DNA of 33,217 nucleotides from an uncultured Mollicutes bacterium (GTDB taxonomy: Bacteria > Bacillota_I > Bacilli_A > Acholeplasmatales > Anaeroplasmataceae), in contig CAMWSQ010000005.1 in the NCBI GenBank assembly GCA_947177025.1, positions 1 through 33,217 on the forward strand, in the 5' to 3' direction. The translations under genes were made by a program, and so were the position numbers. This document shows positions 1-9,537 of this stretch, one piece after another (within the stretch, counting starts at the first letter, position 1; the number at the start of each line of letters is the position of its first letter). The notes under the pieces were generated by a model. It was not told where the DNA came from and did not search any database. It worked only from the letters and a program-made list of their open reading frames with translations.

Positions 1-3000
1 GATATATATGTTCAAAGAACTTTAATTCGAGCCGATGAAAATAAAAATTCATTTGAGGAAATATCCTCTAACGAAGAAATTTTAAAAGAAAATGTTGTTA
101 CCTATATTTATGGAGAAGGTGGATGTGGAAAAACTGAATTTTTAAAGTATCTTATAAAAAATATAGATGATCGTATAGTTATAAAGTTAAAATGTTCAGA
201 AGTTGCCACTGCTCTTTTTGACTGCAACACTAAAAAGAAATCTGAGATATTTTTTGAACAATTATATAAGGAATTCAAAAGTATATGTGGAGAACCCGTA
301 TATTGTTCAGAAAAGGATTTTAAAACAATCTTAGTAAATCATCAATTTATTTTAGTGTTTGATGGAATAGATGAAATAGTAACAGAAAAAGCAACTAATG
401 TTTTTGTTGCGGGAATTAAAGAGTATTTTGAGCATTCTTATAGTCGCGGAGAAAAAACTCCTAAACTCATTTTCACAGGTCGACAGAAAACAGAAGCAAA
501 TAAACTAGATTTTTTTCTCAATGGAGAGCAATTAAAAATAGATTATTTGGAACTTCAGAAATTGACTGATGAAAAAATTAAACAGTTGATTGATAATATT
601 TTTTTGAAATTATCTGACTTGAATAAAGGAGAACAGTTTTATCTTGCTATTTCAGAGATAGATAAAGAATTGAAATCAAATCCCTTTTTACTTACTCAAC
701 TTGTTTTGGTATATAGTAATGAAGATATCATCCCTCAAAATGAATTGGATCTTTTTGATAAAGTTATAGAACTATTGTTGAAAAATGATTACAAAAATAA
801 GGATAAAGGATTATATGACGATTCTAGGTTCTCCGATATGACATCAGAACCTGAAACAATCAAGGTTTGGCTAGAAAAATTTGCTGTGCAACGATATATT
901 TCTCTTTCTGAAGGTAAAAACTTGAAAGAAAAAGATATCTTTGAAATAGTATTAAAGAAATCTAAAGAGTTTCCTGAATCTAGTTTGAAAGCGCGCGCTA
1001 GTTATTTGGTTGATTATTTAGAAAAACGTTCAATTTTAATTGAAAACAACTTTTATCATGGATTGCTTTTACAATATTTTACTGCAGTAGGGTATTATAA
1101 TATTATTTATAATGACGAATCAATCGAAAGAGAAAAATTACAAGAACTTTTTAAGCATTATAATGATTCTTCTTGGAAAGAAGTATTAGAAATGTTTTTT
1201 ATTAAGGCTGATAGTAAACTTGATGAACATACACTAAAAGATTTAATGAATATTATATTAGAGAATAAATCTATTATCGATTATACTCTTTTGTTTGACT
1301 CTTGTCAAAAACTAATTAACCAAAGAAAATCTGTTGAACTTGTTTTAACAAAAGATATTTTAATCAAATCTACAACAGGTGTATTTCCACCATATGGACC
1401 ATTATTTTATTATGTTCCACAATATGAATTATATAAAAGTTGTATATATGCGTTAAATGAAGAAGAATTAGAAGGTAATGCAAAAGCATTAGCTTTAGTA
1501 AGAGATGCTTGCTTTATTTATGGCTTATATAATAATATCAATGAAATAACAAATGAAATAAAAGGACAAGACTTGTTTAATGCTGCTAAAATAGACAAAA
1601 ACTTCAAAGGTGTAAGAGAAGCATTATGTAAAATATTCTATTTAGGAGATACAGATTATACTGGAGGAGATGACATATATCCAAGATGCTTTAATGTCCT
1701 TGAAACTAAACTTTTAAGAGATAGAGGTTATGGAATCCTTGGAACAATGGAAAATCCTTTTGAAGATGAATTAGGATTATTTGAGCATGAACAATATAAT
1801 GAAATAAATGGAGAATATGTAGGCTTTATTTCGTGTCCTAACGAGCCAAAAACAGAAACTAGATTGCGTAGAATTGGAGACGGTGCTAAAAAAATAACTT
1901 GCATTGCTTTTACATCAACTGAAATAAGGGAATTTGATATTTATAGATTTTATCGGAATTCTATTCGTCAAATTTATTTAAATGAATTATGTTATATTGG
2001 TAGTAGACATGAATTTAAAAAAAATTATCCATTAATTCGCGAGATTGTAGAATTTAAAAAGAGAAAATATTGCAATCCAAAGATAAAAATACTTGCAGGA
2101 GTAGAAAAAATAGAACTCTGTGAATTTTCCGATTGTGAAAATCTAGTTGAAGTAGATTTGACTCAGGCAACAGACTTAAAAAAAATAGAAGCTTTGGCAT
2201 TTTCAGACTGCAGGAATTTACCAAAAATAAAAATCTCAAAGGGCGTAACAGAAATATCAGATAGTGCATTTAGTGGATGTGATAATCTAATTGAGTTGGA
2301 TTTGACCAAGGCAGAAGATCTAACAGGAGTAGGAACTTTTTTGTTTTTTGGTTCAACAACAAATAGGCAAATATCTTTAACAAAAAATATGTATAATAAG
2401 TTTTTGCTATCTAGATTGGAGCATATCCATAATCAATTTTTGAAGATACACATTAAAGAGATTGATGACACAATAGTGAATATTACTCTAGAACAAAAGT
2501 CTAGAAATATACATGTCGAAAACTTCATTCGAGAAATGACAGGAGAGGAAATCAAACCTTTTGACGCTAAAATTGATAAAAAAAGAATGGCAAAAGAAGC
2601 TCAAGATATAGCAGGAGAGAAAGCCAAAGTAGATGCAGTCCAAATACTAGAAAGGGTAAAGAAAATAAAAGATAATGCATATTTTGGATATATAAACTTA
2701 GAAGAAGTAGATATGAGTGCGGCAACAGACTTAAAAGAAATAGGAACTTATGCTTTTGGATATTGCGAAAAGATACCAAAAATAAAAATCCCAAAAGAAG
2801 TAGAAAGAATAGGAGCAAACGCCTTTTCTTTCTGTAAAAACTTAGAAGAAGTAGATATGAGTGAAGCAAAAAAACTTATAATGATAGATAATGGTGCTTT
2901 TGGGTATTGCAAAAAACTGCCAAAAATAAAAATTTCACCAAACTTATTATGGATAGGAGATCATGCCTTTTCTTACTGTGAAAACTTAGAAAAAGTAGAT

Positions 3001-3444
3001 ATGAGTGAAGCAAAAAATCTTATGATTATAGACAATTGGTCTTTTTCTGGTTGCGAAAAGTTACCAAAAATAAAAATCCCAAAAGAAGTAGAAAGAATAG
3101 GAGCGAATGCCTTTTCTTCCTGTAAAAACTTAGAAGAAGTAGATATGAGTGAAGCAGAAAGTCTTATGATTATAGACAGTTGGGCGTTTGCGCATTGCCA
3201 AAAATTGGCAAAAATAAAAATTTCACCAAATTTAGAATGGATAGGAGAGTGTGCCTTTCTTTGGTGCAAAAGTTTAGTAGAAGTAGATTTGTCAGCTCCT
3301 AAAGATGTTTTTTTCATAAATGATAAAGCATTTTTTGGTTGTACTAATTTAAAGAAGATAAAGATTAGTAGAAACTTTGAAAATGATATAGAAAGAATAT
3401 TTGGAAATATTGATACATCTATTATAGAATGGTGGATAGATTAA
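1..3444 (+). CDS. NACHT NTPase with C-terminal BspA-type leucine-rich repeats (5' end outside window)
   Basis: The frame is open from base 1, so the true start and any N-terminal effector domain lie upstream; 1147 residues are visible. A Walker A motif GEGGCGKT lies at 112-135, a Walker B of the NACHT form (FILVFDGIDE) at 346-375, and a sensor-like KLIFTGRQ near 463-486. A NACHT-typical helical stretch (NPFLLTQLVLVYSNEDIIP) follows, about residues 109-127 counted from base 355. A helical linker region runs to about 2080. BspA-like leucine-rich repeats (pattern IG..AF..C.NL..VDMS) then fill 2080-3400, interrupted by a charged helical insert near 2400-2640. NACHT plus LRR is the architecture of animal NLR sensors, and bacterial NACHT proteins include anti-phage systems; that role here is inference. 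The GTG at 355 lies inside Walker B and is not a start. Confidence 0.9.
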   Translation, partial: DIYVQRTLIRADENKNSFEEISSNEEILKENVVTYIYGEGGCGKTEFLKYLIKNIDDRIVIKLKCSEVATALFDCNTKKKSEIFFEQLYKEFKSICGEPVYCSEKDFKTILVNHQFILVFDGIDEIVTEKATNVFVAGIKEYFEHSYSRGEKTPKLIFTGRQKTEANKLDFFLNGEQLKIDYLELQKLTDEKIKQLIDNIFLKLSDLNKGEQFYLAISEIDKELKSNPFLLTQLVLVYSNEDIIPQNELDLFDKVIELLLKNDYKNKDKGLYDDSRFSDMTSEPETIKVWLEKFAVQRYISLSEGKNLKEKDIFEIVLKKSKEFPESSLKARASYLVDYLEKRSILIENNFYHGLLLQYFTAVGYYNIIYNDESIEREKLQELFKHYNDSSWKEVLEMFFIKADSKLDEHTLKDLMNIILENKSIIDYTLLFDSCQKLINQRKSVELVLTKDILIKSTTGVFPPYGPLFYYVPQYELYKSCIYALNEEELEGNAKALALVRDACFIYGLYNNINEITNEIKGQDLFNAAKIDKNFKGVREALCKIFYLGDTDYTGGDDIYPRCFNVLETKLLRDRGYGILGTMENPFEDELGLFEHEQYNEINGEYVGFISCPNEPKTETRLRRIGDGAKKITCIAFTSTEIREFDIYRFYRNSIRQIYLNELCYIGSRHEFKKNYPLIREIVEFKKRKYCNPKIKILAGVEKIELCEFSDCENLVEVDLTQATDLKKIEALAFSDCRNLPKIKISKGVTEISDSAFSGCDNLIELDLTKAEDLTGVGTFLFFGSTTNRQISLTKNMYNKFLLSRLEHIHNQFLKIHIKEIDDTIVNITLEQKSRNIHVENFIREMTGEEIKPFDAKIDKKRMAKEAQDIAGEKAKVDAVQILERVKKIKDNAYFGYINLEEVDMSAATDLKEIGTYAFGYCEKIPKIKIPKEVERIGANAFSFCKNLEEVDMSEAKKLIMIDNGAFGYCKKLPKIKISPNLLWIGDHAFSYCENLEKVDMSEAKNLMIIDNWSFSGCEKLPKIKIPKEVERIGANAFSSCKNLEEVDMSEAESLMIIDSWAFAHCQKLAKIKISPNLEWIGECAFLWCKSLVEVDLSAPKDVFFINDKAFFGCTNLKKIKISRNFENDIERIFGNIDTSIIEWWID
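2776..3351 (+). repeat. Tandem 288-bp duplication inside the LRR region
   Basis: Two consecutive 288-bp (96-residue) units, 2776-3063 and 3064-3351, each hold two 48-residue double-LRR blocks. The first part of each unit is almost identical in DNA: the stretch encoding KIPKEVERIGANAFS followed by CKNLEEVDMSEA differs at only a few bases. The later part has diverged. The protein alternates a block with IPKEVERIGANAF and a block with ISPNL.WIG..AF. The near identity indicates a recent in-frame duplication. Confidence 0.85.
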
Positions 3445-3449
3445 AAACA

Positions 3450-3473
3450 AATGGCTATTTTTCAATAGCCATT
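3450..3473. terminator. Bidirectional hairpin between NACHT-LRR and WYL genes
   Basis: A perfect 10-bp stem (3450-3459 with 3464-3473) encloses a TTTC loop. The minus strand reads into a T-rich tract at 3441-3449; the plus side is less T-rich. The stop codon of the WYL gene (3455-3457) lies inside the stem. It probably ends both convergent transcripts. Confidence 0.75.
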
Positions 3474-4471
3474 GTTTCTAATTGTATATCTAATTCTTCT
3501 AGATAATTGATATTGGAATTGTAATAAAATTTTTGAAGCTTTTGTGTTAGCTTTTTAGGTGATAAAACGATAGCTTCTTTACCAAAGCGCTTAAAGTAGT
3601 AAATGATTTGATAATGAGAGCATTTAAAATAATAGATATTTCCTTTGATTCGATCTGGAATAGGTCGATATAGATATATCTTTTGAAACATCTTTAGACC
3701 TTCAGGTGTGAATTTGACAATCACATCTTGTAGGTCTGTAGTAAATAAAGGATATTGCACCCCATACTTGATTTGATAATCAAATATGGTAATAGCTTTA
3801 TCAGATAAGCTTTGTGGCATTTTATGAAGCTGAATGGATTTGATTTTAGATAATCGAATTGTTTTTAAGCTTCCATTTGTTTCTTCAGCTAGAATATAAT
3901 TAAATAATTCTTCAGTAGAGGCTTTTATAGTATAAATGGAAGCCTCTTTTATTATTTCTTCATTCTTTAATACTATATAAACCTTTTGTTTAGATTCTAT
4001 TGCTTCCAGGATTTTATCATAAACATCCTTTAATGCAATGATTTCTCTTTTGTATTGAGGAAAGCTTGCGTAGGAATCAAACAATCTTCTATAGTAAGAA
4101 GAAAGAGTTGTATCTATAAGTAGATTATCATTTATATAATCTATTGCATCCTCTGATAGCTTTGTTGGTTTAAAATGGAGGATTGTTTTATCTAAAGAAG
4201 AAGCTTTTGCTTCAGTTGAAGTCATATATTTTAAAATTTCATCAATCATCTTTGTAGGAGCATTTGTATATTTAGAAGAAATGGCAAGTAGATCATTTCT
4301 TTTTTTCTGTTCTAAACCACTAAATTCTTCATAGTAATTTTTAATGATTGTATTTAAAAATAGATTTCGATTTACTTCCCCATTGGGTTTAGTAAATAAA
4401 AAGGTTTCAGAGTCTTTAACTAGCTTTTTATATGTATTATTTGATATTGAAATCTTAATTTTTTCTTCCAT
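3455..4471 (-). CDS. Ribbon-helix-helix / WYL-domain transcriptional regulator
   Basis: This 338-residue protein starts at the ATG at 4471, chosen because AGAGGTG lies about 7 bases upstream; the frame extends further but without a ribosome binding site. Residues 3-50 (KIKISISNNTYKKL... NRNLFLNTIIKNYYEEF) fit a ribbon-helix-helix DNA-binding fold. Residues about 160-215 fit a WYL ligand-sensing domain (NYILAEE, then KTIRLSKIKSIQL with a conserved-type Arg). The end (FGKEAIVLSPKKL... INYLEE) fits the WCX extension. WYL regulators sense nucleic acid or nucleotide ligands and often control defence loci (BrxR, CapW). It is divergent from the six-gene ClpP/VirD4 operon and is its likely regulator (inference). 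It is convergent with the NACHT gene. Confidence 0.85.
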   Translation of the reverse strand: MEEKIKISISNNTYKKLVKDSETFLFTKPNGEVNRNLFLNTIIKNYYEEFSGLEQKKRNDLLAISSKYTNAPTKMIDEILKYMTSTEAKASSLDKTILHFKPTKLSEDAIDYINDNLLIDTTLSSYYRRLFDSYASFPQYKREIIALKDVYDKILEAIESKQKVYIVLKNEEIIKEASIYTIKASTEELFNYILAEETNGSLKTIRLSKIKSIQLHKMPQSLSDKAITIFDYQIKYGVQYPLFTTDLQDVIVKFTPEGLKMFQKIYLYRPIPDRIKGNIYYFKCSHYQIIYYFKRFGKEAIVLSPKKLTQKLQKFYYNSNINYLEELDIQLETMAIEK

Positions 4472-4491
4472 TTTAAACACCTCTAATATGT

Positions 4492-4520
4492 ATTGTACAT
4501 AAAAAGGGGGCATTTTTCAA
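4492..4520 (-). promoter_or_regulatory. Promoter of the WYL regulator
   Basis: On the minus strand, -35 TTGAAA (4515-4520) and -10 TACAAT (4492-4497) are separated by 17 bp. Transcription would begin around 4485, giving a very short leader before the ATG at 4471. Confidence 0.65.
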
Positions 4521-4617: not shown

Positions 4618-4646
4618 ACTATTGCGGGGAAAAAGGGGTGAGGGAA

Positions 4647-5357
4647 TTGATCATTAATCATAAAGAAATAAAAGTAATTGAAACAACAAATTATGATTTA
4701 CAGAAATATGATACAATTCGTGTAAATTCATATGGAGAAATTGTAATAGAATATACTTGTTATTCTAGATGGTCTAATCCTGAACCTTTTATTAAAAAAA
4801 ATATTCCTTTCATTCAAAAACAATTAGACACATTAAAGAAAACAATTCTTCCCACCTTCAAGAATGAATCGGTTGTATATCTTTTAGGAAGAAAGTATAC
4901 GGTGTATAGAAGTAAGAGAATTCAAACAGTTCGAAAAACTAAAAATGGAATTGCATTTCCAAGAAGCTATACGATATCAAATATTAGACAGTATTTGAAG
5001 GATTGGTTAGAAGATGTGTTAGACATTATTTATTATCATTATATTAAAAAATATAATTTAGAGACTGTTTCTTTTCATATAATAGAAGCTCATTCCTATT
5101 GGGGAATATGTCATCGTTCTAGAAAATCACATTTTAAGGATTATATAAAGTTTAATACAGCGTTGATTTTTGTACCAATTCGATTGGTTGAATATGTTGT
5201 TGTTCATGAGCTTTGTCATTTGAAGCATATGAATCATGGTCAAAGCTTTTGGGATGAAGTAGAAGGGATTTTACCGGATGCTAAAAAGAAAAGAAAACTG
5301 CTACACTCGTATCATTTAGAATGGTTATTAGAACGATTGGGAGTAAAAAGGAGATGA
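4647..5357 (+). CDS. YgjP-like (DUF45) zinc metallopeptidase
   Basis: The protein belongs to the YgjP/SprT-like family of soluble zinc metallopeptidases. The active site is HELCHLKHMNHGQSFW: HExxH provides two His ligands and NH is followed by FW as in the family. It is preceded by the family's YWGIC and FNTALIFVP.RLVEYVVVHE strand-helix elements. Length is about 236 residues, usual for the family. I prefer TTG at 4647 because AAGGGGTGAGGG lies just upstream; GTG at 4638 is the alternative but sits against its Shine-Dalgarno. It is the first gene of a six-gene operon. From memory, this family is often found beside type I restriction genes, so a defence context is plausible. Substrate unknown. 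Confidence 0.85.
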   Translation: MIINHKEIKVIETTNYDLQKYDTIRVNSYGEIVIEYTCYSRWSNPEPFIKKNIPFIQKQLDTLKKTILPTFKNESVVYLLGRKYTVYRSKRIQTVRKTKNGIAFPRSYTISNIRQYLKDWLEDVLDIIYYHYIKKYNLETVSFHIIEAHSYWGICHRSRKSHFKDYIKFNTALIFVPIRLVEYVVVHELCHLKHMNHGQSFWDEVEGILPDAKKKRKLLHSYHLEWLLERLGVKRR

Positions 5358-5362
5358 GTAGT

Positions 5363-5662
5363 TTGAATGTATTAGAAATTTTATTAGATGAGAAAAATAA
5401 TGATCCTATTGTCTTAGAGGATAAGGATGGGAAGAGCGTAGCTTTTGAACAAATTGCTGTAATACCTTATCAAGAAAAAATATATTGTATTTTAAAGCCT
5501 ATTGATAGACTAGATGGTGTTGCAATGGATGAAGCACTTGTCTTTTCTGTAGAAGAAATTGAGGATTCCTATGAATTAATTTATGAACAGGATGAGATGA
5601 TATCTCTTTCTGTGTTTGATGAATATTATCAGTTATTAGAAGAAAGGTTAGGTATGAAGTAA
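5363..5662 (+). CDS. DUF1292 family protein
   Basis: A small acidic protein of about 100 residues matching the DUF1292 pattern: VLEDKDGKSVAFEQIAVIPY, then IYCILKPIDRLDG, an acidic VFSVEEIEDSYELI stretch and a helical tail. Function of the family is unknown; no catalytic motif is visible. Start choice: ATG at 5354 overlaps the upstream stop (ATGA) but directly abuts AAGGAG, whereas TTG at 5363 has that site 9 bases upstream, so I chose TTG. It is translationally linked to the metallopeptidase and followed after one base by clpP, so it is probably a structural or adaptor subunit of the same system (inference). Confidence 0.8.
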   Translation: MNVLEILLDEKNNDPIVLEDKDGKSVAFEQIAVIPYQEKIYCILKPIDRLDGVAMDEALVFSVEEIEDSYELIYEQDEMISLSVFDEYYQLLEERLGMK

Positions 5663-5663
5663 A

Positions 5664-6224
5664 ATGAAAACAAAAGAAGAATTTTCTGCTCAGTATCCAT
5701 TAAAGAGAAATACAGTGAATTTATTTGGGGTAATAGATGATGCGATGGCAGAGCTAGTAATTGCTCAGCTTCAGTATTTGGATGATAATGGAGCAGAGGA
5801 AATTACATTACAGATCAATTCGCCAGGAGGAAGTGTATCTGCAGGACTTGCCATCTATGATACACTAAACTATATTCGTGCACGTGTTATTACAGTTGGT
5901 ATTGGTATGGCTGCAAGTATGGGAGCATTTCTCCTCTCTGCTGGTTCTAAGGGATATCGCAGAGCCACAAAGAATTGTGAAATATTAATACATCAGCCCC
6001 TAGGTGGTGCAAGTGGACAAGCCAGTGATATTATCATTGCTGCAAACCACATTGAAAAAACAAGAAGAAAGTTAAATGAAATATTATCTGAAAATACAGG
6101 AAGGTCTATAAAACAAATTCAAAGGGATACAGATCGAGATAATATTATGACTGCTGAGGAAGCATTACACTATGGAATTATTGATACTGTAATTCCAAGT
6201 AAAAATAAAGCGAAAGGAGAATAG
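5664..6224 (+). CDS. ClpP-family serine protease (accessory paralogue)
   Basis: This 186-residue ClpP-fold protease has all catalytic residues: Ser85 in GMAASMGAF, His110 in EILIHQPLGG and Asp159 in DTDRDNIM. The spacing Ser-25-His-49-Asp matches E. coli ClpP. The oxyanion strand INSPGGSVSAG is present. ClpP forms tetradecameric barrels that need a Clp ATPase to feed substrates. It sits between DUF1292 and the Sel1/pseudo-AAA+ gene rather than beside clpX or trigger factor, so it is an accessory copy; a housekeeping clpP elsewhere is expected but not visible. The start follows AGAAAGGTTAGG at a long distance, and coupling to the previous stop is likely. Confidence 0.93.
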   Translation: MKTKEEFSAQYPLKRNTVNLFGVIDDAMAELVIAQLQYLDDNGAEEITLQINSPGGSVSAGLAIYDTLNYIRARVITVGIGMAASMGAFLLSAGSKGYRRATKNCEILIHQPLGGASGQASDIIIAANHIEKTRRKLNEILSENTGRSIKQIQRDTDRDNIMTAEEALHYGIIDTVIPSKNKAKGE

Positions 6225-6227
6225 CGT

Positions 6228-7847
6228 ATGCTAGATATTTTAAAGGAATCCATTCTCTATGAATATTTTGTTTATAAATCTGTTTTAAACAAATTTGTAG
6301 AGGATGAACAAATCCTAGATTGTCTAATTAAAGTTTTCCAATTAGAGGAAAAGGATAAATCAGATTTACTAAAACTAATTCATAAAGACATAATTGAAGA
6401 AATCACATCAGAAGCAGACTATAAGCAATATAGAAGAATCAGTCAATATCAGAAAATGATGGAATCCTCTATGTTCTGCTCTGAGGAAGAGGAAACCATC
6501 ATTTCTATTAAAGGAGAAGCACTTTCTACCACAACAAAGAAAAATCTATTTGCTAAGCCAGAAATGACAAGCTCCCTCATTCAAAGAAACCTAATGCATT
6601 ATGCCAAGGTTGGTTGCCTAGTTGCGATGCGTATTCTTGGTGTTCTTCTCTGTGAAGGTATATTTGTAGAACAGAATAGAACAAAAGGAATTTCCTATTT
6701 AGAAAAGGCATCCTCTTGGGCAGATATAACTGCTACACTAGCTTTACTTAAGTACAAGAAGGATGCAAAAGAAACTCTTGCCTTTCTCAATTCCATTGCA
6801 AAGGATACACCATTTGAAGACTTTGCTATTGAGTTAAACTCTACTTATGGAATCAAAGAGATTTTCTATAAGGAAGAAATCTTTTTATTGAAGAAGGCAA
6901 TGGCGGCCGAAAAGATGAAGCTCGATGAATTTAATCCGATGCATGCTAGATTAGTCTATGCACCTGCAATCTCTTTAAAGGATAAAGAAAAAATCATTTT
7001 CTCAGAAAATAAGGAGCATATCTCTGATGCTTGTGACTTACCAATCAAATTTCATTATGAAGATTTAAAAATGAAATCAGAAGATGAGATTCAGCTTCTT
7101 TTATCTAGAGAAAAAGAATTTCATACAATTTCTATGGGATTAAAAAATAGTGATCTTAGACAACTGAATAGCTATCATCCGATTTGTTTGGTATCTGATT
7201 CAAATTATGTATTGGAAATGGCTATGAGAGGAATTCAGCAAATCTTTGAAGAGAATATAGAATGCATTGAAATGAATGATTTACGAGAAGCAGATTTTGA
7301 ACCAACAAAAAATCATGTATTTGTTCGAAATGTGAATGAAAGTAAAAATACAATTTATTTTCTGATCTTTAGAGGAGAACTTTCTGAAAGTGTGTTAGAA
7401 ATGGGAAAGAACTTTTTGAAAACCGAAAAGCGCAAGAAGTTCCACATCAACCATCCTACAATCACTTTAGATTTAAGAGGTGTTTTACCTATCTGTATTT
7501 GTGATAAGGAAAATGCTAAGAAGCTAAAGCCATTTGTTGAAACGATTAAGCTTGCGAATATAACAGATGAAGAAAAGCCTAGTATTATTGAGGATATGTT
7601 CCTTATGAAGAGTGACTTATATAAGGTCAGTGAAAAGAGGATAGATTCCTCTGTAGTGGAAAAGCTTTGTACTTACAGCTTAGAAACTGCTGAAAAGATA
7701 TTAGACCAAGCAATTCGTGATTTTAGAGTGGAATATGGTTCTGCTGAATTAACATTAGAGCGTATGCAGCCTTACTTCTTTGAAAAGAATCAAAACGGAA
7801 ATAAGAATGCATACGGTTTTGGAGGGATTATTCATGAAAATAACTAA
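6228..7847 (+). CDS. Sel1-repeat protein with degenerate (P-loop-less) AAA+-like domain; candidate ClpP partner
   Basis: This 539-residue protein has no confident named family. Residues about 120-178 resemble Sel1/TPR helical repeats (AMRILGVLLCEGIFVEQNRTKGISYLEKAS). Residues about 315-515 follow the order of a Lon/Clp-like AAA+ module: strand HPICLVSDSNYVLEMAMRGI where a P-loop should be, FVRNV at the Walker B position, LDLRGVLPICICDK at a sensor-1 position, then a lid-like helical region (ITDEEKPSIIEDMFL, then IDSSVVEKLC). GxxGxGKT is absent and no Walker B acidic pair is clear, so ATP hydrolysis is unlikely. The C-terminus contains AYGFGGIIH, close to the IGFG docking loop of ClpX. It lies three bases after clpP. 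AAA+ relationship and ClpP docking are inferences. Confidence 0.6.
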   Translation: MLDILKESILYEYFVYKSVLNKFVEDEQILDCLIKVFQLEEKDKSDLLKLIHKDIIEEITSEADYKQYRRISQYQKMMESSMFCSEEEETIISIKGEALSTTTKKNLFAKPEMTSSLIQRNLMHYAKVGCLVAMRILGVLLCEGIFVEQNRTKGISYLEKASSWADITATLALLKYKKDAKETLAFLNSIAKDTPFEDFAIELNSTYGIKEIFYKEEIFLLKKAMAAEKMKLDEFNPMHARLVYAPAISLKDKEKIIFSENKEHISDACDLPIKFHYEDLKMKSEDEIQLLLSREKEFHTISMGLKNSDLRQLNSYHPICLVSDSNYVLEMAMRGIQQIFEENIECIEMNDLREADFEPTKNHVFVRNVNESKNTIYFLIFRGELSESVLEMGKNFLKTEKRKKFHINHPTITLDLRGVLPICICDKENAKKLKPFVETIKLANITDEEKPSIIEDMFLMKSDLYKVSEKRIDSSVVEKLCTYSLETAEKILDQAIRDFRVEYGSAELTLERMQPYFFEKNQNGNKNAYGFGGIIHENN

Positions 7848-9537
7848 TCAAATTTTACAAGGCTATGAAAATACTACTCTTATCCATCACAATACGATGG
7901 ATAAGAGCTTCCCAAATTCATATTATTATGATGAATTAGGTGAACATGAAATCTCAGGCGTTTTAAAAGCAAGTCGTTATGTAAATGGAAGGTTATTACA
8001 AACCTATTCCAAACAAGAAAATCATGTAGGTGTTATTGCTGCTACACGTCTAGGAAAAACCTCTCAGTATGTAATTCCTACCATTCTTTCCTTTGCCAAA
8101 CAAAAGGTCAAAAAAAGAATGGTGATTTCTGACCCTAAAGGAGAATTATACAAGCTAACCTCTGAAGCCTTAAGACAAGAAGGATATACAGTAAAGCTGA
8201 TTAATTTTAGAGATTATCAGCATTCCGAATATTGGAATCCTCTAACACCAATTTTTAAAAAATATAAAAAAATCGATGAGATTGATAATGAAGTTGAAGT
8301 AGTTAATACAAAGGATGGACCACGAAATCGATTCAGAGGAAGAATATATGAAAGTCAGGAAGAGTTAGACTATGTCATAGAAATGTCTAAGGACTATGCC
8401 TTAAAGGATGTGGAAAATGATATTGATACTGTTGTTCTTGAGGCAATCTCTACAGAACGTACGGATGATCCCTATTGGGAGGATTCTGCAAGAGTACTAT
8501 TAAAGGGATTGCTTTGGGCAATGCTTGAGGATAGTTCTCCAGATACAAAGAGTGAAAGAATTACAGAAGAAACCTTTTCCTATAATACTGCCTTAACTAT
8601 TATGGATAATATGAGAGATGATAATGGTGCTAAATATAATGATGGTGGGTATTTCACTTCCAGACCAAAAGATTCTAAATCATTGACTACAGTAAAAAAC
8701 TGTATTATCGAAAATGGACATGTAACTAGAAAATGTATTGTCAGTACGTTTAATACAAAAATGAGTATTTATAAGGATAGTACAATTCGTTTGATTACAA
8801 GCTGTAATAGCTTTGATATACAGGAAGTAGTAGATGAAGAACATCCTGTAGCTTATTTTATAGCCTATCGTGATGAGATTAAAGGACACTATCAAATCAT
8901 TAGTTCTCTTGTCCAAAATATTTATATGAATTTGATAGAATATGCAAACAAGAAGGATAATGGCAAACTAGACGTCCCATTCTATTTCATATTAGATGAG
9001 TTTGGAAACTTCCCTAAAATTCCTAATTTTGAAACTGTTGTTTCAGCCTGTGCAGGAAGAAATATTTGGTTCATTTTAATTCTACAATCCTATGCACAGT
9101 TGGACCATGTTTATAAAAGAGATGTATCCGAAATCATTCGAGACAATTTAAACTTGCATGTTTTTATTGGTAGTAATAATCCAGAGACTTTAAAGAAGTT
9201 TAGTGAGGAATGCGGAGAGTTTACAAGAATATCTCCAATGAGCGCCTTAAATGGTTCTAAGGAGGATATTGAAGCCTATGAATTAGAAACAATACCTCTA
9301 ATGCCAAAAAGCAGACTTGCCAGCCTAAATGTAGGAGAATGTATTGTAACAGAAGCGAATAGTGGATATGTTTTATTGTCAAAATTGGAAAGATATTATT
9401 TATGTAAGGAATTCCAGAATCTAAAACTTTCTGATGACCATGCATATGCAGCAAAGATTAATCCCTTAGAAAGGAAATATGTGTATAAGTTCAAAACGGA
9501 TGATGAGGATGATGATACGGATCCATTTGATTTTTAG
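7834..9537 (+). CDS. VirD4/TraG-like coupling-protein ATPase without membrane anchor
   Basis: A 567-residue FtsK/HerA-superfamily motor of the TraG/VirD4 type. Walker A is AATRLGKT (residues 69-76, Lys75), preceded by the typical GVI strand. Walker B is FYFILDEFGNFPKIPNF, followed by the family glutamine motif (ILILQSYAQL) and NPETLKKFSEECGE. True VirD4 proteins carry N-terminal membrane helices; none is visible here, so it is probably soluble. The tail is very acidic (DDEDDDTDPFDF). The ATG at 7834 overlaps the previous gene by 14 bp and has GGAGGG 7 bases upstream. No relaxase, VirB4, VirB6 or peptidoglycan hydrolase lies nearby, so conjugation is not supported. A DNA- or protein-translocating motor in the ClpP operon is more likely (inference). 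Confidence 0.88.
   Translation: MKITNQILQGYENTTLIHHNTMDKSFPNSYYYDELGEHEISGVLKASRYVNGRLLQTYSKQENHVGVIAATRLGKTSQYVIPTILSFAKQKVKKRMVISDPKGELYKLTSEALRQEGYTVKLINFRDYQHSEYWNPLTPIFKKYKKIDEIDNEVEVVNTKDGPRNRFRGRIYESQEELDYVIEMSKDYALKDVENDIDTVVLEAISTERTDDPYWEDSARVLLKGLLWAMLEDSSPDTKSERITEETFSYNTALTIMDNMRDDNGAKYNDGGYFTSRPKDSKSLTTVKNCIIENGHVTRKCIVSTFNTKMSIYKDSTIRLITSCNSFDIQEVVDEEHPVAYFIAYRDEIKGHYQIISSLVQNIYMNLIEYANKKDNGKLDVPFYFILDEFGNFPKIPNFETVVSACAGRNIWFILILQSYAQLDHVYKRDVSEIIRDNLNLHVFIGSNNPETLKKFSEECGEFTRISPMSALNGSKEDIEAYELETIPLMPKSRLASLNVGECIVTEANSGYVLLSKLERYYLCKEFQNLKLSDDHAYAAKINPLERKYVYKFKTDDEDDDTDPFDF

Follow-up and report, generated by a model that had tools for sequence, protein, structure and literature searches.

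The clpP-X-virD4 genes of this Mollicutes contig form a rare trio that seems to encode a protein-shredding machine of a new kind: a divergent ClpP, a protein without ATP motifs (protein X) and a soluble VirD4-type ATPase lie side by side. Our best explanation, to which we give a probability of roughly 0.6, is that X is a non-hydrolysing adaptor, with a C-terminal tail for docking onto ClpP and an N-terminal domain that couples the protease to VirD4. The predicted fold of X, the loss of its ATP motifs, the conservation of its tail, the linkage of the genes, the divergence of ClpP and the lack of PF03432 relaxases in the trio genomes are computed results. No published description of the module was found in the literature searched.

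In the window (the whole stretch of 33,217 nucleotides that was analysed) the trio belongs to a same-strand run of six genes, the neighbours of which overlap or sit a few bases apart. The features of this run are:

4638..5357, plus strand: YgjP-like metallopeptidase, first gene of the run (Pfam YgjP-like, E 7e-34)
5321..5662, plus strand: DUF1292-like protein (Pfam match just below cut-off), present in several relatives
5664..6224, plus strand: second, divergent ClpP of 186 aa (Pfam CLP_protease, E 4e-65), Ser-His-Asp triad kept
6228..7847, plus strand: protein X of 539 aa, made up of a helical N-terminal region, a pseudo-AAA+ module resembling Lon and a disordered C-terminal putative docking tail
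6228..6917, plus strand: X residues 1-230, predicted all-helical N-terminal domain with a weak Sel1 repeat (AlphaFold model, sub-threshold Pfam match, HHalign to the shorter protein X2)
6933..7802, plus strand: X residues 236-525, predicted Lon-type three-helix bundle, AAA+ alpha/beta domain and lid, ATP motifs absent (VIA-align, Foldseek)
7191..7214, plus strand: VSDSNYVL, degenerate P-loop position, X residues 322-329
7812..7820, plus strand: [Y/F/L]GF tripeptide, X residues 529-531, proposed ClpP-docking motif, kept across 14 loci with varying synonymous codons
7821..7826, plus strand: GGAGGG, Shine-Dalgarno sequence of virD4, 7 nt before its ATG at 7834, and at the same time the codons of Gly532-Gly533 of X
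7834..9537, plus strand: soluble VirD4/TraG-like ATPase of 567 aa (Pfam T4SS-DNA_transf, E 9e-51), Walker A and B intact, no transmembrane segment
9549..10274, plus strand: winged-helix-like protein, weakly FtsK-gamma-like, relatives of which follow virD4 in several loci

The start of X at 6228 directly follows the end of clpP at 6224, and X overlaps virD4 by 14 bases. Searches of genome samples (100, 395 and 392 genomes) and a scan of one collection yielded 13 orthologues, which are 21-47% identical to X; together with the window they make 14 loci that are related to each other and not independent. All 14 keep the order clpP-X-virD4, and in one sample of the class the nine genomes out of 395 that have X are also the nine that have a trio-type VirD4, with trio-type VirD4s scoring above 850 bits and the next VirD4 relatives below 390 bits. 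The association of X with the VirD4-like motor, which the initial annotation of this DNA had only raised as a possibility, is thus stronger than foreseen.

Judged from its sequence and its predicted structure, X is best called a pseudo-AAA+ protein of the Lon type. The AlphaFold2 model (run on nine sequences; mean pLDDT 84, pTM 0.72) is helical to about residue 270 and continues with an alpha/beta core from residue 319, a helical lid to residue 523 and a disordered tail (523-539). In a Foldseek search of the PDB with this model, Lon proteases take ranks 1-49 (E 4.6e-8) and the first Clp entry appears at rank 50; in a viral structure library the top matches are again Lon proteases. VIA-align gives a Z of 16.1 with human Lon (7ksm_F; rmsd 3.8, 284 residues), of 15.0 with a fragment comprising the three-helix bundle and alpha/beta domain of Lon (4ypn) and of about 13 with HslU, ClpX and ClpA. 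The structural alignment with Lon ends at the start of Lon's protease, leaving 14 residues of X beyond the aligned lid. The AAA+ fold that had been proposed for residues 310-515 is therefore recovered, of Lon rather than ClpX type, but the module is larger and extends over about residues 236-525, including the three-helix bundle. As a sequence query against the PDB, X gave no match; HHalign against Lon of related genomes yields a collinear alignment of 316 columns (E 4e-4) with a probability of only 35% on a shallow template, in which FLKTEKRKKFHINHPTITLDLRGVLPICICDK of X stands opposite the Lon segment LDPEQN..F.DHY.E...DLS.V.FIATAN. Of the Sel1-like repeats that had been suggested, only a single sub-threshold one was detected (residues 133-162, 19.4 bits against a Pfam cut-off of 30.7), although the model is helical over residues 1-270.

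The P-loop position is occupied by VSDSNYVL, where the first strand of the alpha/beta core ends in the model, and its loss, already read from the window alone, holds throughout: Walker A (GxxxxGK[ST]) is absent from X in 14 of 14 loci. A Walker B-type DE pair is also absent from the 14, which mostly have xG[ED] after the third strand, and no Pfam match to Lon_C or a Ser-Lys protease domain was obtained. X is not a Lon protease, since the ATPase features and the protease features both fail. It resembles LonA in the three-helix bundle, the AAA+ alpha/beta domain, the lid and the collinear segment before the sensor-1 strand, but differs in lacking Walker A and B and a protease domain and in carrying a disordered tail after the lid.

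How, then, would such a protein serve a protease? ClpX docks onto ClpP through IGF loops, and to our knowledge the known partners of ClpP are ATP-hydrolysing Clp ATPases that dock via an internal loop. X shares with ClpX, ClpA and ClpC the hydrophobic-Gly-Phe tripeptide and the pairing with a ClpP; unlike these, it has no ATP motifs, and its tripeptide lies on the disordered C-terminus instead of an AAA+ loop and usually begins with Tyr. Residues 529-536 of X read YGFGGIIH, and across the 14 loci the protein ends in YGFGG, FGFGG, YGFGE, YGFEVK or YGFEVQS (both followed by the stop), RGFGYGG (one orthologue, L035) or EGRLGF with the stop directly behind it, the last being the end of the most distant orthologue (21% identity); the LGF-type tail is found at locus L045. 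Mean identity is 0.90 over residues 529-531 as compared to 0.39 over residues 511-528. The conserved core is [Y/F/L]-G-F, and the next Gly-Gly is not kept but gives way to GE, EV or the end of the protein. Thus, of the GFG tail that the initial annotation had likened to the ClpX loop, the GF persists in orthologues down to 21% identity, whereas conservation of GFG as such had to be rejected, because the Gly codons that follow the core are the Shine-Dalgarno sequence. Among ORFs of at least 150 aa of the collected loci, the only background considered, a hydrophobic-Gly-Phe tripeptide occurs within the last 25 residues of 15 out of 176, and 12 of these 15 are X itself; the motif density would lead one to expect 0.026 per protein. 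The docking tripeptide of Clp ATPases has the consensus (L/I/V)-G-(F/L) (PMC8745299), which LGF fits and from which YGF and FGF depart at the first residue.

A prediction without AAA+ fold, or orthologues without the GFG tail, had been set beforehand as outcomes that would refute the idea of a non-hydrolysing adaptor for the neighbouring ClpP, and neither refuted it; with the Lon-type fold and the retained GF the idea is supported, the docking itself remaining inferred from motif and linkage, without physical evidence. In a model of ClpP fused to X, obtained by reading through the TAG stop of clpP as a computing device only, the tail is unplaced (pLDDT < 50).

Each of the nine trio genomes encodes exactly two ClpPs. 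When the trio copies are compared with the nine housekeeping ClpPs of these genomes (numbering after the B. subtilis and S. aureus ClpP sequences), all 14 lack the N-terminal axial segment of about 10 residues, 12 of 14 have Gln in place of a pocket Tyr that is present in 9 of 9 housekeeping copies, and 13 of 14 have Thr for a Leu that the housekeeping copies (n=9) keep. The pocket Gln goes together with a tail Tyr in 10 of 12 trio loci, and where the pocket residue is Tyr (L014, L093 and L095) the tail tripeptide begins with F, L or I. Covariation of the pocket residue with the first residue of the tripeptide is suggested by these sequences but unproven, because the loci are related.

As the tail of X adjoins the Shine-Dalgarno sequence of virD4, translation may account for some of its conservation. 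One could go further and suppose that the tail serves the start of virD4 or another partner rather than ClpP, for instance that the tripeptide binds VirD4. That the Gly-Gly codons are the Shine-Dalgarno sequence and that the distance from the motif to the virD4 start is similar in all loci would be in line with this. Glu-Val stands in place of Gly-Gly where the ribosome site lies in another frame. The codons of the tripeptide tell otherwise: ggt, ggg, gga and ggc are all used for Gly and tat or tac for Tyr, so that the constraint on the tail acts at the protein level. Moreover, the spacing is changed in L035, L036 and L042, and canonical IGF or LGF ends recur in X2, X3 and a CbbX-like ATPase, the last of which has no virD4 behind it. 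We therefore regard a purely translational or ClpP-unrelated role of the tail as improbable.

These related modules deserve closer description. Among the VirD4 relatives that score next best, those lacking a membrane segment directly follow shorter or divergent proteins with GF tails. X2 (306 aa) ends in ...KKLGFNVKGGK, ...TRIGFSI or ...SRIGFIL and X3 in ...KRGIGF, and each directly precedes a soluble VirD4. The alignment of X3 with X spans 412 columns and reaches the last residue (E 2.3e-7); X2 matches only the N-terminal domain of X (HHalign E 1.5e-6), and hence what all have in common is the N-terminal domain and the tail, not the Lon-like part. An X3 and soluble VirD4 module also contains a CbbX/SpoVK-like AAA+ ATPase (L096:10877-13252) with an intact P-loop and VKKKIGF as its last residues. 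Its sequence makes it a possible further partner of ClpP through a C-terminal IGF tail; the contig stretch with X3 is without any ClpP gene. Two variant modules contain pairs of ClpP genes (L095:11131-12234 and L093:7157-8219), one member of each pair lacking the catalytic Ser and His. No GF tail was seen upstream of membrane-type VirD4 relatives. That the canonical tripeptide keeps turning up at C-termini encoded beside soluble VirD4s is the strongest support for docking, albeit support of the kind that comparison of sequences can give.

The ATPase of the trio belongs to the Pfam family of the VirD4/TraG coupling proteins, with intact Walker motifs, and comes close to the conjugative CD1115-type proteins (242.7 bits against a cut-off of 250). 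This resemblance is what speaks for VirD4 being part of a degraded or novel conjugation apparatus, the turnover of which ClpP and X would merely control. However, the trio VirD4 differs from coupling proteins in being soluble and linked to clpP and X: its maximal 19-residue hydropathy is 1.42 as compared to 2.95 in membrane-type relatives and it lacks an N-terminal membrane anchor. In addition, it is the sole PF02534 protein in 7 of 9 trio genomes, and none of the nine contains a PF03432 relaxase, although this was the only relaxase family searched and VirB4 was not included. Within this scope, a conjugation apparatus of either kind seems very improbable to us. The C-termini of the VirD4s (window 9500-9537 and relatives) are short and aromatic/acidic (PFDF, NDWDF, KFEF, MFDF, FDELW, FPRW), and 10 of 12 VirD4s, as compared to 39 of 238 other ORFs, have two or more aromatics among their last 8 residues; it is possible, from this composition, that they constitute a second docking tail.

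We propose that X would correspond to the motor half of Lon after loss of its ATP motifs, with a flexible tail in place of Lon's own protease. Its [Y/F/L]-G-F would dock into hydrophobic pockets of the trio ClpP in the manner of the ClpX IGF loops, its N-terminal helical domain, which it has in common with the shorter adaptors, would most likely contact the soluble VirD4-type ATPase, and the VirD4 motor would pass substrate on to ClpP, either protein as such or protein on DNA. Binding to ClpP, assembly of the rings, the contact with VirD4, the direction of substrate flow and the biological role are all inferred. The main rival is that X is an ATP-independent activator, like Bpa or PA28 of the proteasome, which opens ClpP unaided for unfolded proteins, VirD4 having its own DNA-related task elsewhere in that pathway. 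X lacks ATP motifs and the trio ClpP lacks the axial segment, as would suit an activator. Furthermore, Bpa and the ATPase Mpa are mutually unrelated and have one common C-terminal docking motif (PMC11953334), much as X, X2 and the CbbX-like ATPase share [YLI]GF ends. The likeness to Bpa, an ATP-free activator with a C-terminal docking tail, is an analogy of working only, and Bpa acts on the 20S proteasome, not on ClpP. Against a separate job for VirD4, X and the trio-type VirD4 are never found apart in our sample and their genes overlap, which indicates a joint complex. We consider the activator unlikely on balance, if not to be dismissed, and retain the coupling adaptor.

If this is true, a dead AAA+ protein that docks onto ClpP by its C-terminus beside a motor of the DNA-transfer type would constitute a new class of ClpP partner, the tripeptide would offer a modular docking signal to look for in further proteins, and the case would show a way of splitting the motor and protease that are fused in Lon and pairing the motor anew with ClpP.

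A bolder version sees a self-compartmentalised protease in which the soluble VirD4, a member of the FtsK/HerA superfamily, is the unfoldase, the specialised ClpP the protease and the dead Lon-like protein with its [Y/L/I]GF tail the adaptor, possibly guided by DNA and related to defence. The last two attributes are prompted by the FtsK-gamma-like winged-helix partners and the immune-type neighbours, and the whole is offered tentatively, as a possibility that may well fail. The setting of the module resembles a defence island, and a defence role is plausible but unproven; PADLOC gave no match for ClpP, X or VirD4, and X was found neither in viral contigs, phages and plasmids nor in PHROGs. Four genomes of the genus have the module at a shared chromosomal site next to a Crp-like gene; there, four relatives have no insert and one has other cargo. 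At the same site, another genome (L107:5067-11398) encodes two proteins, one of 1331 aa and unknown family, the other of 790 aa with a metallophosphoesterase domain. In L014 (9140-11560) VirD4 is fused to a winged-helix-like stretch, and in L011 and L012 the genes that follow encode small FtsK motors with gamma domains. A proteasome-family (HslV-like) subunit gene is located a short distance upstream of the trio clpP in L014 (5879-6517), and genes for vWA, PP2C-like and protein-kinase proteins stand immediately 5' of it in L043 (273-3340). Finally, the window itself carries at 355-4513 a WYL-like regulator in divergent orientation and a NACHT-LRR-like gene truncated by the start of the contig, and the module's neighbours in relatives include TIR and TIR-NACHT proteins, with a full TIR-NACHT-LRR protein in L010.
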